From: Pseudobacteriovorax antillogorgiicola
GTDB taxonomy: Bacteria > Bdellovibrionota_B > Oligoflexia > Oligoflexales > Oligoflexaceae
Reading direction: 5' to 3'
Assembly (NCBI RefSeq): GCF_900177345.1
Contig: NZ_FWZT01000007.1
Location: 1-64,000, forward strand
Length of the DNA: 64,000 bases
Shown here: piece by piece, positions 12,183 through 64,000 of the stretch
Numbering within the stretch: the stretch's first letter is position 1
How the letters are laid out: every line of letters begins with the position of its first letter
The notes under the pieces: model-generated
The model's database searches: none
What the model was told of the DNA's origin: nothing
The model's input: only the letters and a program-made list of their open reading frames with translations
Position numbers and translations under genes: made by a program

Positions 12183-13001
12183 ATGGTGGCCCAAGTAAAA
12201 GAGATTCATATCTATCCGACAAAATCATGCCAAGGCTTGGCTTTGGATCAAAGTCAGGCTGGGGATTGGGGTCTAGAGGGCGATCGGCTCATGATGCTAG
12301 TTAAGCCTGATGGTACCTTCCTCACCCAACGAGCCTATCCCAAGATGGGCGAGGTAGGGCTATATGTCGAAGGTGGCGATCTTGTTTTAAGCCGCGCTGG
12401 GGAGTCACGCCGGTTTCCTAAAATGATCCATCGCCAATTGGGAGTGAAAGTTTGGGGGGATGAAGTCCAAGCCGATGACCTCGGTGACGACATTGCTCAT
12501 CAATTGTCTCAATGGCTAGGTATTGCCCTGCGAGTTGTGGCTTGGAATCCCGCTGCTAGGCGTTGGGCGGACCGCAACTTCGTGGATCGGGATGTCCCTT
12601 ATGGATTTGCTGATGGCTTTCCATATCTGATTTCCAATCAGCAGTCACTCGTAGATCTCAACGACCGATTGCAGGCCAAAGACCATAGGCCCATTTCTAT
12701 GACGAGGTTTAGGCCCAACATAGTCATCGAAGGGTGGGAGGCTTATCAGGAAGATCGTGTCTCGCAAATCAAAATAGGGAATGCTGTCTTTGAGCTGGTG
12801 AAGCCTTGTACCCGCTGCCGGATCACGACTATCGATCCAGACACCATGAAGCCAGGCCCTGAGCCCCTAAAAACTCTCATGGAGTATCGGTATCATGAGG
12901 AACTGAGAGGTGTAACCTTCGGCCAAAATGCGGTTCTACATCATGGTTCAGGTACTACGATTCGGGTTGGTGATGAAGTCACGATACTGGGAACTGCTTA
13001 G
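12183..13001 (+). CDS. MOSC domain protein (YcbX/mARC-like)
   Basis: A 272-residue protein with an N-terminal MOSC beta-barrel (IHIYPTKSCQG, FLTQRAYPKM) and a C-terminal MOSC domain. The latter contains KPCTRCRITTIDP, where the first Cys is the predicted molybdenum ligand, and FGQNAV. YcbX and mARC use a molybdenum cofactor to reduce N-hydroxylated compounds; YcbX also carries a ferredoxin domain that is absent here, so an outside electron donor would be needed. The ATG at 12183 follows GGAGGAGG. The stop overlaps the convergent cytochrome-barrel gene by 4 nt. Confidence 0.88.
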   Translation: MVAQVKEIHIYPTKSCQGLALDQSQAGDWGLEGDRLMMLVKPDGTFLTQRAYPKMGEVGLYVEGGDLVLSRAGESRRFPKMIHRQLGVKVWGDEVQADDLGDDIAHQLSQWLGIALRVVAWNPAARRWADRNFVDRDVPYGFADGFPYLISNQQSLVDLNDRLQAKDHRPISMTRFRPNIVIEGWEAYQEDRVSQIKIGNAVFELVKPCTRCRITTIDPDTMKPGPEPLKTLMEYRYHEELRGVTFGQNAVLHHGSGTTIRVGDEVTILGTA

Positions 13002-14458
13002 AAATAGGTGTGCACCATGAAGGACAGTGTCGTTTGATCAGTCTTTGCGGCCGTTGGTAAGGTTTGGTCATCGCTGTCCATACTGTAAGACACACCTACT
13101 TCCAGGCCGGGTGTGAGAAAGTGCTTGGTGCCTAATTTGATTTGGCTTGAGGATCCTGGCAGAACGTTGCGAGCTACGTTGGCTTGAGCGATATCAAGAG
13201 TGGCATAATTCTCTCTCCAGAAGCGATACTTGCCTTCAAGAGTGATCACACCACCTTCACGAAAATCAGAAAGTTCCTCGTCCCGCGCCATAGAAACCCC
13301 TTCGATCCCGACGATGTATTCTCGCCAGGTGCCACGAAACTCGATAGCATGCATCTCGACCCGCTTGCTGTTGGCCTCCTCCGAGGCATCTGTAGTGGTC
13401 CAGAAGCTATAGTTCACTTGCGCTCCAAATGTTACAAAACGCAGTCCGAAATTGCCGGCAATTCCGGTTTCCTTGTCATTGCCATTGGTCCCCACTCGCT
13501 TCATAATATAGTGGATGTTGCCAAAGGGAACGTTTGGTGCGGAGCCTACAGATAAGGCTTTGTATAGGTTTCTTGTAGAGTTCGCTTGGCCCGTAGTAAT
13601 AAAGCTAGCCATTTCTTGAGCGAGAGCAGTGTGATCAGGGGTATAGTTGCCAAAAAGTGGCCGATAGTAGCCACCCATCACAAAGATATTCCATGGCAGG
13701 TCGTCCTGCATGACATATAAGCTGCGGGTTTGTTCTTGGCCTGGGATAGTGTCCATTTGCTGGCCGATGGGAACTCCAAGGTATCGTGCCTCGTAGACAA
13801 AATGAGTATGGCGCAGCGGGCGGTAACGAATGCCGAAGGTCGCCTCCATTAAAAAGGGGTGAAGGTCTTGGTCTTCGCCGTCCATATACTTGTAGGCAAA
13901 GAATCGAAAATCACCGCCGCCATCGATCTTCTGCTCATCCATCAAGCGATACGGATCGGTTTGCGGGATACTAAACTCGAACTCCCGCCGAGACTTCGCA
14001 TTTACATGGTAAAACTTATCGTGATAGCGATCGTAGAGCAGCTCATTTTCGAACTCTTCGTTGCTTCGTACGAGAGGAAAGCCCTTGCGGATGATCTTTC
14101 TGATATTTTGGACTGAAAGCTTTTTTTGTTTCCGGCCGTAGAACTGCTTATGAAATGGGGCGATCAGTTTTGGCTGCTTCAAACGCTTCACACGAAATGA
14201 TCTTAACCAGTAATTTTCATTCCACTTGCCATAGAAGCTACGAAGGCCTCCCCCATTGGGATTTACATGACAACCCTGACAAGACAAGCTACAGCGGCGC
14301 AGGACCGGAGGTAAATTTTTGCGGCCCGGCGCATGACAGCCAGAGCAATTTTGAGCGAATCGAGTTCCAAGCCAGGGCTCAGCCATCCCAATCTCACTGC
14401 CTAGGCAGAAGGCCAAAAAACAAATATAGCGCAAGAATACCAATCGATAGCACGGCAT
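12998..14458 (-). CDS. Diheme c-type cytochrome fused to a predicted outer-membrane beta-barrel
   Basis: A 486-residue exported protein. After a signal peptide (about residues 1-26, GMAEP) come two heme-binding motifs, CSGCH at 38-42 and CQGCH at 60-64, with an extra Cys56. The linker at 70-150 is basic. From about residue 155 to the end the sequence alternates polar and hydrophobic residues in amphipathic strands (FRFFAYKYM, LRFVTFGAQVNYSF, LEVGVSYSM) and ends in Phe (LSFMVHTYF), the classic last strand of an outer-membrane barrel. A role in moving electrons at or across the outer membrane is inferred, not shown. No recognisable named family; it is convergent with the MOSC gene. Confidence 0.7.
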   Translation of the reverse strand: MPCYRLVFLRYICFLAFCLGSEIGMAEPWLGTRFAQNCSGCHAPGRKNLPPVLRRCSLSCQGCHVNPNGGGLRSFYGKWNENYWLRSFRVKRLKQPKLIAPFHKQFYGRKQKKLSVQNIRKIIRKGFPLVRSNEEFENELLYDRYHDKFYHVNAKSRREFEFSIPQTDPYRLMDEQKIDGGGDFRFFAYKYMDGEDQDLHPFLMEATFGIRYRPLRHTHFVYEARYLGVPIGQQMDTIPGQEQTRSLYVMQDDLPWNIFVMGGYYRPLFGNYTPDHTALAQEMASFITTGQANSTRNLYKALSVGSAPNVPFGNIHYIMKRVGTNGNDKETGIAGNFGLRFVTFGAQVNYSFWTTTDASEEANSKRVEMHAIEFRGTWREYIVGIEGVSMARDEELSDFREGGVITLEGKYRFWRENYATLDIAQANVARNVLPGSSSQIKLGTKHFLTPGLEVGVSYSMDSDDQTLPTAAKTDQTTLSFMVHTYF

Positions 14459-59929: not shown

Positions 59930-59961
59930 AAAAAAGCGTGGGTTTAGCCCGCGCTTTTTTT
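59930..59961. terminator. Bidirectional intrinsic terminator after rplX
   Basis: The stem AAAAAAGCG-GGG pairs with CCC-CGCTTTTTT around a short loop, with one T-G or bulge position, and ends in a T-run on both strands. It serves rplX and lies at the end of the convergent peroxidase gene, whose stop codon (59944-59946) falls within the hairpin. Confidence 0.9.
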
Positions 59962-61392
59962 GTTGGTTTCTTGGCGACTCACCTGAAGGATGTTCCATTC
60001 AGACTGTAGGGATTCGAGGAACAGCTTGAGCTGTTGTCTCTCTTCATCACTCCACTGGAAACGAGGGATCGATTCCGAGCGATGGCCAATCGCTGGCTCT
60101 TGATCGTGATCTTCATAGTGATCAAGAACTTGATCAATACTGTCAAACCGACCATCATGCATATAGGGCTTGGTTTTTGCTAAATTGCGAAGGGTTGGTG
60201 TCTTGAAGGCCCCCATGACTTCAAAGTTTTCTAGATCGGCATACCTAAGTTCCATACATGCCTCCCGGTCTTGTGGCTCGATGGCCTCGCAGGGAACAGG
60301 GGATGTTTGGGCAAGAAGCAGGCCTCTAGCCCGACCAATGTCAAGTTTAGCGTGGCTTGGTAAGCCTATATTGTGAAACTGTTGGTCGCTCAAGAGGGGG
60401 CCGTTGTGGCAATTGATACAGCCACTCTCGGCGAAAACTTTGAACCCTTGCCACTGCTCTTCTCCAAATGATGAGTGAAAACCTTGGGGTGCTTGCTTTT
60501 GGTCCCCAAGCTTTGCCAAAAATTGATCGAAGGGGCTATTCACCGCATAAATTGTTCTTTGATAGGCTGCAACGGCGCGAGCGAAATTTAAGAATATCTG
60601 GTCCAGCTCTTTCTGAAGGTTTGGGCTAAGGCCCTGATAAGCAGCAATCCAATCTGAAGGCGGACTTTCTGAGTGGAGCATAGTTTGGGAAAACCAAGCG
60701 TAGGGTGACATCTTTTGATCAGCCGCCGCTTGAATGAACTCAGTTTGTAACGAAAAATCGGAAAGTGTGGCCACTCCATAGCTTGCCAGGCGCTGGCTCA
60801 TGTTTGTCTTAGCCTTAGGGTTTGGTGAAGCATGGAATCGTGGCGACTTAAGTAGGTGTTCCAGCTCCACTGAAATAGGATCGAAGAGAGCTTCATAAGA
60901 TTCTTTATAATGAAGAGCGATAGTCTGGGCAACTTGGCCACGGTTGCTGCCATGCTCAAGCCTTGCTTCGATAGGGCCCTTGGCTTGGGTTTCCAATGAG
61001 TGCGCTCTGCCATCCCAAAAAAACCATTCTAAAAGATAGGCATTGATAAGTGTTGGCGTATTGCGGTCGGTTGTACCCATGCCTGCAGCGGTCTTTAGAC
61101 CATCGGTAAAGTCTAGCTCCGGCTTATGGCAAGAACTGCAAGACACCGAGCCATCGGCTGAAAAGCGGTGATCGAAAAAGAGTCGTTGTCCAAGTTGCGC
61201 TAGTTGACGCTGCCGATCATTGATCTCGGGTGGAGCAATGCGGAGTGATCGAGCCTGGCGCACAAGATCTTGTTGACTGAGTTGCTGGCGCTCTGGACTC
61301 TGCCAAAATCCAGCCGTATCTGGCCAATAAATATAAGTCAGGATCGCTAGCGTCGCAGCTAGGTACGGGTTGAACATTTGCTTTGCTTTCAT
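59944..61392 (-). CDS. Diheme cytochrome c peroxidase / MauG-family protein
   Basis: A 482-residue exported protein with an N-terminal anchor or signal (7-26). Two heme sites are visible: CSSCHKPELDFTDG (Cys85, Cys88, His89) and CINCHNGPLLS near residue 323. GQRLFFDHRFS, DRNTPTLINA and FKTPTLRNLAKTKPYMHDG are family landmarks. It is longer than CcpA (about 330) because of an inserted region at 160-270. It may reduce peroxide or modify a protein; the substrate is unknown. It lies divergent from the caa3 oxidase genes. Confidence 0.88.
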   Translation of the reverse strand: MKAKQMFNPYLAATLAILTYIYWPDTAGFWQSPERQQLSQQDLVRQARSLRIAPPEINDRQRQLAQLGQRLFFDHRFSADGSVSCSSCHKPELDFTDGLKTAAGMGTTDRNTPTLINAYLLEWFFWDGRAHSLETQAKGPIEARLEHGSNRGQVAQTIALHYKESYEALFDPISVELEHLLKSPRFHASPNPKAKTNMSQRLASYGVATLSDFSLQTEFIQAAADQKMSPYAWFSQTMLHSESPPSDWIAAYQGLSPNLQKELDQIFLNFARAVAAYQRTIYAVNSPFDQFLAKLGDQKQAPQGFHSSFGEEQWQGFKVFAESGCINCHNGPLLSDQQFHNIGLPSHAKLDIGRARGLLLAQTSPVPCEAIEPQDREACMELRYADLENFEVMGAFKTPTLRNLAKTKPYMHDGRFDSIDQVLDHYEDHDQEPAIGHRSESIPRFQWSDEERQQLKLFLESLQSEWNILQVSRQETNKKSAG

Positions 61393-61777: not shown

Positions 61778-62845
61778 ATGAAACATCCCATGAGATGGTT
61801 AAAGATTCTGTTAACCTTCAGCTTTCTCTTCAGTTTAACCTCGTGCTTTGAAAAGCTTCCCATGACTACCGTGCATAGTGTGACGGAGTGGGGCGCACAG
61901 ATTAACGAACTTTACCTCCTCACGACAGTCATCGTGACTTTTGTCTTTTTCGCGGTGGCAATTCCCTTCTGCTACGCAATTTGGAAATTTAGGGAAAAAG
62001 AAGGAGACACGAGGATTCCGGAGCAGATTCATGGTAATCATAAGCTAGAAGTCTTGTGGACATTGATTCCGATCGTACTCCTAATCTTTATCTTTATTCC
62101 GACCGTGCAATTGATCCTTTCGCGCTTTGAAGAGCCACCTAAGGATACCTTGAAGATTCAAGCCATTGCTCACCAGTGGTGGTGGGAATTCAAGTATCCC
62201 GATCTTGGGATTACAACCGCGAACGAGATGTATGTTCCAGAAGGAAAACACGTCACAATCGAGCTAACATCAGCTGACGTCATCCACAGTTTCTGGATTC
62301 CTCGCTGGGGTGGAAAAGTTGATAACCTACCCGGTGAAACCAACTACATCACGTACACAACTCCTGCTGTAGAAGATGCTGAGAATGGCGATTACTATCA
62401 AGGCCATTGCGTTGAGCTTTGCGGTCTGTCTCATGCTCGCATGCGCTACCAAGCTGTGGTCCTGCCTCAAGAAAGGTTCGATGCCTGGACTAAAGTTGCT
62501 CAGACCCCACCGACAGTCACAACGGCGCTTGAGAAAAAAGGCCAGGAACTGTTCATGTCAAAAACTTGCTTCACTTGTCATGCGATCGAAGGCACAACAG
62601 CACAGGGTAGAGTCGGTCCTGACCTTACCAACTTCGGTAGCCGTCGCATGCTAGCTGCGGGAACTTTGCCCAATGACAAGGAAGGCATGTACGAGTGGTT
62701 GCGTGATTCTGTTGATAGCAAGCCTCCATATCAAAACGTCAAGCCAGGTAGTTTGATGATTTTTGGTGAGGGCTTCGAGCTCACAGATGAAGATATTGAA
62801 GCTCTGACAGCGTATCTGCAGAACTCAACCGCAAAGACTTATTAA
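61778..62845 (+). CDS. coxB: Cytochrome c oxidase subunit II (caa3 type)
   Basis: A 355-residue subunit. It starts with a lipoprotein-type signal (FSLTSC, Cys23), has two membrane helices (about 42-65 and 85-110), and a cupredoxin domain. CuA ligands lie in GHCVELCGLSHARM (Cys211, Cys215, His219, Met222). A fused C-terminal cytochrome c domain has CFTCH (Cys264, Cys267, His268) and an axial Met in PGSLMIF. It takes electrons from a cytochrome c and passes them to subunit I. Followed 45 nt later by coxA. Confidence 0.96.
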   Translation: MKHPMRWLKILLTFSFLFSLTSCFEKLPMTTVHSVTEWGAQINELYLLTTVIVTFVFFAVAIPFCYAIWKFREKEGDTRIPEQIHGNHKLEVLWTLIPIVLLIFIFIPTVQLILSRFEEPPKDTLKIQAIAHQWWWEFKYPDLGITTANEMYVPEGKHVTIELTSADVIHSFWIPRWGGKVDNLPGETNYITYTTPAVEDAENGDYYQGHCVELCGLSHARMRYQAVVLPQERFDAWTKVAQTPPTVTTALEKKGQELFMSKTCFTCHAIEGTTAQGRVGPDLTNFGSRRMLAAGTLPNDKEGMYEWLRDSVDSKPPYQNVKPGSLMIFGEGFELTDEDIEALTAYLQNSTAKTY

Positions 62846-62890
62846 TAAACGTTCGATGACGTATTGCTCTCAGGAGGAATTTTTAGCGAT

Positions 62891-64000
62891 ATGAGTAGTT
62901 CAAGCTCTCCCAAAACAGGACTGTGGAGCTGGATAACCACAGTCGACCATAAACGAATCGGCATCATGTATGCCTTGGCTGCCTTCTTCTTTCTAATTTT
63001 CGGTGGTGTGGAAGCACTGCTCATGAGAACGCAGCTTCTCGTACCGAATAACGATTTTATCACAGCACGTACCTTTAACAGTATGGTGACGATGCATGGT
63101 ACGACCATGATCTTCTTGTTCGTCATGCCTCTAAGTGCCGCCTTTTTTAACTATCTCACACCGATCATGATCGGTGCTCGCGACGTTGCTTTCCCTCGCT
63201 TGAACGCCCTAAGTTTTTGGATCTTCCTCTTTGGTGGATTCCTTCTGAACTTTGGCTTCCTTGTGGACCAAGCGCCTCGCGGCGGATGGTTTGGCTACGC
63301 AAACCTTACCTCTCTTCAGTACACCCCAGACAAGTCTGCCGACTTTTGGGCCATGGGCTTGCAGGTGGTTGGTTTAGCGTCCCTGATCGCGTCCGTTAAC
63401 TTCTTTGTAACCATCCTTAACATGCGCTGTAAGGGCATGACCCTTCTCAAAATGCCGATGTTCATTTGGACGACTTTGGTGACTCAGGTACTTTTGATGC
63501 TTTCACTGCCAGTGATTACCGTCGCCCTTCTCATGGTGACTTTCGATCGACAGTTTGGTACTGGTTTCTTCAATCCAGCAGATGGTGGTCAGGTTATCTT
63601 GTGGCAGCATCTCTTCTGGGTTTTCGGTCACCCTGAAGTTTACATCCTAATCCTGCCAGCCATGGGTATCGTATCAGAGATCCTGGCAACGTTTTCGAAG
63701 AAGCCCCTATTCGGCTACTCCGTTATGGTTTATTCCAGCTGTGCTATTGGTTTCCTAGGCTTTGCTGTTTGGGCTCATCACATGTTCACCACAGGTATGG
63801 GGCCTTGGGCGACGACATTCTTCACCGCGGCAACCATGCTTATCGCGGTGCCTACCGGGGTTAAGATTTTTAACTGGATCTCAACGGTTTGGGGTGGTCG
63901 CATCAGCTTCACAACAGCCAACCTCTTCGGCCTCAGCTTTGTAGCTATGTTCACCCTGGGTGGTCTGTCTGGAATCATGCACTCTTCTGCGCCTATTGAC
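62891..64000 (+). CDS. coxA: Cytochrome c oxidase subunit I (truncated by window end)
   Basis: The first 370 residues of the heme-copper oxidase catalytic subunit; the frame is open to the last base of the window. It begins MSSSSSPKTGLWSWITTVDH. His69 in MVTMHGTTMIF is a low-spin heme ligand. The CuB site has His247 and the cross-linked Tyr251 in GHPEVYILILP, and His296-His297 in WAHHMFTTGM. The K/D-channel regions look normal for an A-type oxidase. ATG at 62891 follows AGGAGG by 13 nt, a rather long spacing. Confidence 0.96.
   Translation, partial: MSSSSSPKTGLWSWITTVDHKRIGIMYALAAFFFLIFGGVEALLMRTQLLVPNNDFITARTFNSMVTMHGTTMIFLFVMPLSAAFFNYLTPIMIGARDVAFPRLNALSFWIFLFGGFLLNFGFLVDQAPRGGWFGYANLTSLQYTPDKSADFWAMGLQVVGLASLIASVNFFVTILNMRCKGMTLLKMPMFIWTTLVTQVLLMLSLPVITVALLMVTFDRQFGTGFFNPADGGQVILWQHLFWVFGHPEVYILILPAMGIVSEILATFSKKPLFGYSVMVYSSCAIGFLGFAVWAHHMFTTGMGPWATTFFTAATMLIAVPTGVKIFNWISTVWGGRISFTTANLFGLSFVAMFTLGGLSGIMHSSAPID

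Follow-up and report, generated by a model that had tools for sequence, protein, structure and literature searches.

The window analysed here, a stretch of 64,000 nucleotides from Pseudobacteriovorax antillogorgiicola, contains a gene for a diheme cytochrome fused to a predicted porin-type barrel, and the product of this gene, on balance, probably relays electrons in the outer membrane as a single chain (Table 1). The open-licence literature searched does not describe any cytochrome-porin fusion with two hemes, and the family is apparently undescribed there; it is a further form of the fused cytochrome-porins and not the first of that architecture. The fused cytochrome-porins known previously are monoheme and tied to iron oxidation, and the relatives of Bdellovibrio-like bacteria are not known to oxidize iron. 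Computation established the heme motifs and their conservation, the fold class of the barrel and an enrichment of heme proteins among the neighbours of related genes.

Table 1. Features of the fused cytochrome-porin gene (positions in the window) and genes found near its relatives (locus and position).
Feature	Position	Strand	Basis or remark
Fused diheme cytochrome-porin gene	12998..14458	-	ORF, 486 aa, ATG start; homologs found
Signal peptide, residues 1-26	14381..14458	-	Sequence reading; conserved block opens at A-E-P-W
First heme motif CSGCH, residues 38-42	14333..14347	-	Invariant, 25/25 diheme members
Extra cysteine C56 (CxxxCxxCH)	14291..14293	-	Invariant, 25/25 diheme members; deletion variant without C56
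Second heme motif CQGCH, residues 60-64, then VNPNGGGxR..YG	14267..14281	-	Invariant
C-terminal 16-stranded porin-type barrel (predicted), residues 180-486	13001..13921	-	AlphaFold2 and Foldseek
Long strand 5-6 loop (porin L3 position) with PLFGNYTPDH, residues 266-298	13565..13663	-	Strand list from AlphaFold2 barrel model
H276, invariant L3 histidine, candidate distal heme ligand	13631..13633	-	Conservation in long and short subfamilies
H483, invariant last-strand histidine, candidate distal heme ligand	13010..13012	-	Conservation and residue alternation
Small variable-heme-motif lipoprotein	L028 8652-9056
Small variable-heme-motif lipoprotein	L029 8003-8425
Small variable-heme-motif lipoprotein	L031 5546-6494
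Small variable-heme-motif lipoprotein	L035 7284-7721
Small variable-heme-motif lipoprotein	L039 8052-8471
Small variable-heme-motif lipoprotein	L047 1078-1536
HemJ-type gene	L032 4634-5065
HemJ-type gene	L033 4733-5167
HemJ-type gene	L034 6930-7364
HemJ-type gene	L038 9330-9764

The signal peptide is likely cleaved after GMA and before EPW, as read from the sequence, and the mature chain continues into a short segment with two c-type heme motifs. Two CxxCH motifs within the first 70 residues arose in none of 200,000 shuffles of the protein, and both motifs, together with their 22-residue spacing, are kept in all 25 intact relatives examined. The block around the second motif resembles CHVNPxGGG, the sole heme site of monoheme relatives. 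A fifth cysteine, C56, stands four residues ahead of the second motif throughout the diheme members (25/25); it could be an axial ligand, form a disulfide with a partner or have some other role. The window protein belongs to no Pfam or NCBIfam family above cut-off, only a sub-threshold cytochrome motif being returned, and a PDB sequence search with it found no related solved structure.

Between the hemes and the barrel of the window protein lies a poorly conserved linker of about 100 residues, and the strand-rich region spans residues ~180-486. A preliminary description of this DNA had counted about 330 residues of strand-like sequence ending in a terminal Phe; the strands and the Phe end (VHTYF, the C-terminus of the 486-residue protein) hold, but the length does not, the barrel comprising about 305 residues after the linker. 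Modelled alone with AlphaFold2, residues 165-486 formed exactly 16 strands (pLDDT 68, pTM 0.71), and the top 50 Foldseek matches of this model in the PDB were all outer-membrane porins (OmpT, VhChiP, OmpF, Omp32; best E 7.2e-11, TM mostly 0.6-0.7). The full chain, folded from an eight-sequence alignment, gave a poor model (pLDDT 50, pTM 0.53), with the N-terminal part mostly below 50 and the heme segment, from which the hemes themselves are absent, at about 30-36; this model also matched general outer-membrane porins in the PDB (best E 3.6e-11). Since both the full-length and the barrel models match porins, the barrel is a prediction of which the fold class is well supported and the atomic detail is not. 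A soluble beta-propeller, which the preliminary description had set against the barrel as the outcome to be checked by structure prediction, is ruled out by these matches; the 16 strands and the top 50 hits included no propeller, and the central proposal of a diheme cytochrome and a barrel-like domain in one chain was borne out. The protein would be located in the outer membrane.

The search for homologs that had also been proposed recovered matches in 15 of 38 related genomes. P. antillogorgiicola itself has four such genes, namely the window gene and, on contig 4, two long copies and one short copy that is listed in two pieces. A single-sequence scan of 84,980 species genomes yielded seven loci, in a Pseudobacteriovorax bin, in Bdellovibrionota bins and in one bin labelled Streptomyces griseus, a label that is probably mistaken; a plasmid search with the window protein gave no match. 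With a profile, 20 of 58 genomes of the phylum had matches, a few of them to monoheme relatives only. The aligned diheme sequences fall into a long subfamily (19), in which the ~100-residue linker follows the hemes, and a short subfamily (6) that lacks it. There is, in addition, a natural one-heme variant (L013, 1447-2601, minus strand; L044, 7148-8302, minus strand); the deletion in L013 merges both heme motifs into one (CAHCHVNPNGGG) and takes out the linker, and in the tree this protein falls inside the long subfamily. Seven monoheme barrel proteins were observed in the same phylum (L063, L041 9863-11008, L065, L066, L086, L087 and L088), and these form one separate group in the tree. With a CHVNPxGGG-like heme block and a DH motif in the barrel, they are like the diheme family in the second-heme block and the barrel motif, but carry one heme instead of two; the one that was scanned (L041) belongs to no Pfam or NCBIfam family. 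These proteins may connect the diheme family with Cyc2.

Four histidines, H42, H64, H276 and H483, and no others are invariant throughout both the long (19/19) and the short (6/6) subfamily. H276 sits in the loop that joins predicted strands 5 and 6, which corresponds to L3 of classical porins; in those of the OmpF type, this loop folds into the pore. H483 stands fourth from the C-terminus, and residue alternation puts its side chain lumen-ward near the periplasmic end, a placement of modest significance only (50 of 2000 permutations scored as high); its counterpart in the short subfamily lies two residues deeper, with parity unchanged. The PLFGNYTPDH-type L3 motif is conserved in the long, short and monoheme families. 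Among the monoheme proteins, the L3 histidine is present in all seven alignment rows (a count taken from the alignment, as a regular expression missed three of the seven), and most of them (5/7) have a histidine near the C-terminus; the one-heme deletion variant keeps both barrel histidines. Since the L3 histidine is retained in the monoheme relatives and in the deletion variant, the two barrel histidines cannot be paired one-to-one with two hemes; they characterize the wider family and do not go strictly with the second heme.

H276 and H483 probably cap the heme irons or line a heme pocket and so tie the hemes to the pore; M204 and C56, likewise invariant, could be alternative ligands. The invariant barrel histidines and the extra cysteine offer testable residues for the holding of heme at or in a small pore. 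More speculatively, and only as a tentative suggestion, the protein may represent a class of single-chain conduit in which the barrel gives the distal ligands to both hemes, from L3 and from the last strand, with the hemes stacked along the 16-strand pore. The invariant C56 and histidines, with two hemes at hand, could also form the active site of an enzyme anchored in the outer membrane, such as a diheme peroxidase, for which the barrel would be anchor and substrate channel; the heme segment is very short, however, and there is no similarity to CCP/MauG or another enzyme family above the Pfam or NCBIfam cut-off, such that this explanation is highly improbable.

The electron relay favoured here, from the placing and ligands of the hemes to the transfer of electrons with its direction and substrate, is inferred as follows. 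After export, two c-type hemes would be attached to the N-terminal segment, which would lie at the periplasmic mouth of the 16-stranded barrel and partly plug it, the hemes possibly lying in the pore, where H276 of L3 and H483 of the last strand would hold them. Single electrons would then pass between an external small solute or partner at the pore and periplasmic c-type cytochromes, which would link on to the respiratory chain; by analogy with Cyc2, dissolved Fe(II) may be considered as a substrate, as only one option among others. A pore of 16 strands may be unable to hold heme, in which case both hemes may stay on the periplasmic side; a pair of hemes would by itself reach across the membrane only with at least one of them inside the pore. 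The minimal electron conduit that the preliminary description considered is the likeliest reading of the protein.

The genes beside the relatives support this reading. Exported proteins with a C-x2-4-CH motif, recognized with a crude filter for export, are encoded at 15 of the 47 positions next to a relative's gene, versus 10 of 227 at a distance of 2-7 (Fisher p 3.7e-7, with loci taken as independent despite their kinship). All five short-subfamily loci with flanks are adjoined by a divergent tetraheme lipoprotein, assigned to Pfam cytochrome c7 in the one scanned, and at six long-subfamily loci a small lipoprotein with a CX2CH, CX3CH or CX4CH heme motif is encoded at or near the cytochrome-porin gene. 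In four other loci and genomes, a gene of the HemJ type (protoporphyrinogen oxidase, UPF0093) is at most two genes away. The window copy, like its ortholog in genome G001, is flanked by a tatA-like gene on one side and a MOSC gene on the other; the tatA-like, methyltransferase, transaldolase and MOSC genes are common to both loci, and the absence of a cytochrome gene beside either copy speaks against the relay. Heme-protein neighbours are a feature of the relatives and not of the window copy, for which membership in a cytochrome operon is ruled out.

These neighbourhoods also enter into the alternative of a heme-anchored or redox-gated porin, in which the hemes would be a structural or switching plug of a solute channel and net transmembrane electron transfer would not be the purpose. 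The general-porin fold of 16 strands, a heme segment positioned to plug the mouth and the lack of a cytochrome partner alongside the window copy are in keeping with such a porin. Weighed against the heme proteins enriched beside the relatives, the retention of two hemes at fixed spacing and the fact that Cyc2, a known fused cytochrome-porin, is an iron oxidase (PMC8406198), it appears unlikely, and the electron relay is preferred.

In keeping with the electron relay, P. antillogorgiicola has genes for the assembly of cytochrome c and for three heme-copper oxidases, of which one starts within the window. The genes of this last oxidase (61778-64000, plus strand) comprise COX2 with a cytochrome c domain and COX1, which continues beyond the window end; they are adjoined by a gene similar to MauG/di-heme peroxidases (59950-61392, minus strand).

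The preliminary description had held that known conduits use separate proteins for heme and barrel, which is incorrect, as Cyc2 (PMC8406198) and Cyt572 (PMC10654088) are fused. According to Keffer et al. (2021; PMC8406198), Cyc2, the fused monoheme cytochrome-porin and iron oxidase of iron oxidizers, has as its defining features a single CXXCH, AXPXFAR[Q/K][T/Y] upstream of the heme site, PXL downstream of it and a barrel of 16 strands. For comparison, six plasmid proteins fetched with a probe peptide composed from the published consensus served as the Cyc2 set. The window protein is like Cyc2 in being a single chain with a signal peptide, an N-terminal c-type heme segment from AxP and a 16-strand outer-membrane barrel, as predicted from its strands and porin matches. 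A c-type cytochrome gene is also nearby at the Cyc2 loci examined, as beside the relatives of the window protein, lying directly downstream in five of six and two genes upstream in the sixth (L081). By contrast, Cyc2 has one heme where the window family has two CxxCH motifs in every intact member. AXPXFAR[QK][TY] was found in 0/26 family members versus 3/6 of the Cyc2 set (the other three being near matches), and PXL downstream of CXXCH in 0/26 versus 6/6. Neither invariant barrel histidine occurs in the six Cyc2 sequences examined, and the six-sequence Cyc2 profile had no match in the P. antillogorgiicola genome at E<=0.01.

Profile-profile comparison nevertheless aligned AxPxxxxR..CxxCH of the two families (E 2.5e-4, probability 42.6%) over 39 N-terminal columns only, and a monoheme ORF on contig 9 of genome G025 was matched by the diheme profile in its barrel (E 2e-6) and by the Cyc2 profile at its N-terminus (E 4.4e-6), so a distant common origin with Cyc2 is plausible, though not proven. 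Together with the identical architecture and the cytochrome genes near the plasmid loci, these matches speak for a true diheme branch of Cyc2, that is, for an outer-membrane iron(II) oxidase. Given the second heme, the missing motifs and histidines and the unmatched genome, this proposal is improbable; on sequence grounds, the diheme family is not Cyc2.

The likeness to Cyt572 of Leptospirillum, a monoheme cytochrome-porin fusion (PMC10654088), lies in the fusion of an N-terminal CxxCH with a barrel of the outer membrane, and the difference, drawn from the description of Cyt572 and not from its sequence, in one heme motif versus two. MtrAB, PioAB and MtoAB resemble the window protein in the broad principle of pairing a cytochrome with an outer-membrane barrel that holds it, but consist of separate proteins, a decaheme cytochrome and a barrel of 26 strands (PMC8406198), versus one chain with two hemes and 16 strands; an MtrB/PioB profile had no match in the P. 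antillogorgiicola genome, its controls being equally without any match. Several diheme copies per genome, in bacteria not known to oxidize iron, would mean that electrons are exchanged across the outer membrane more widely, and in more ways, than the models built on Cyc2 and Mtr account for. What it has in common with the fused cytochrome-porins is the joining of c-type heme motifs and a predicted outer-membrane barrel in one exported chain.
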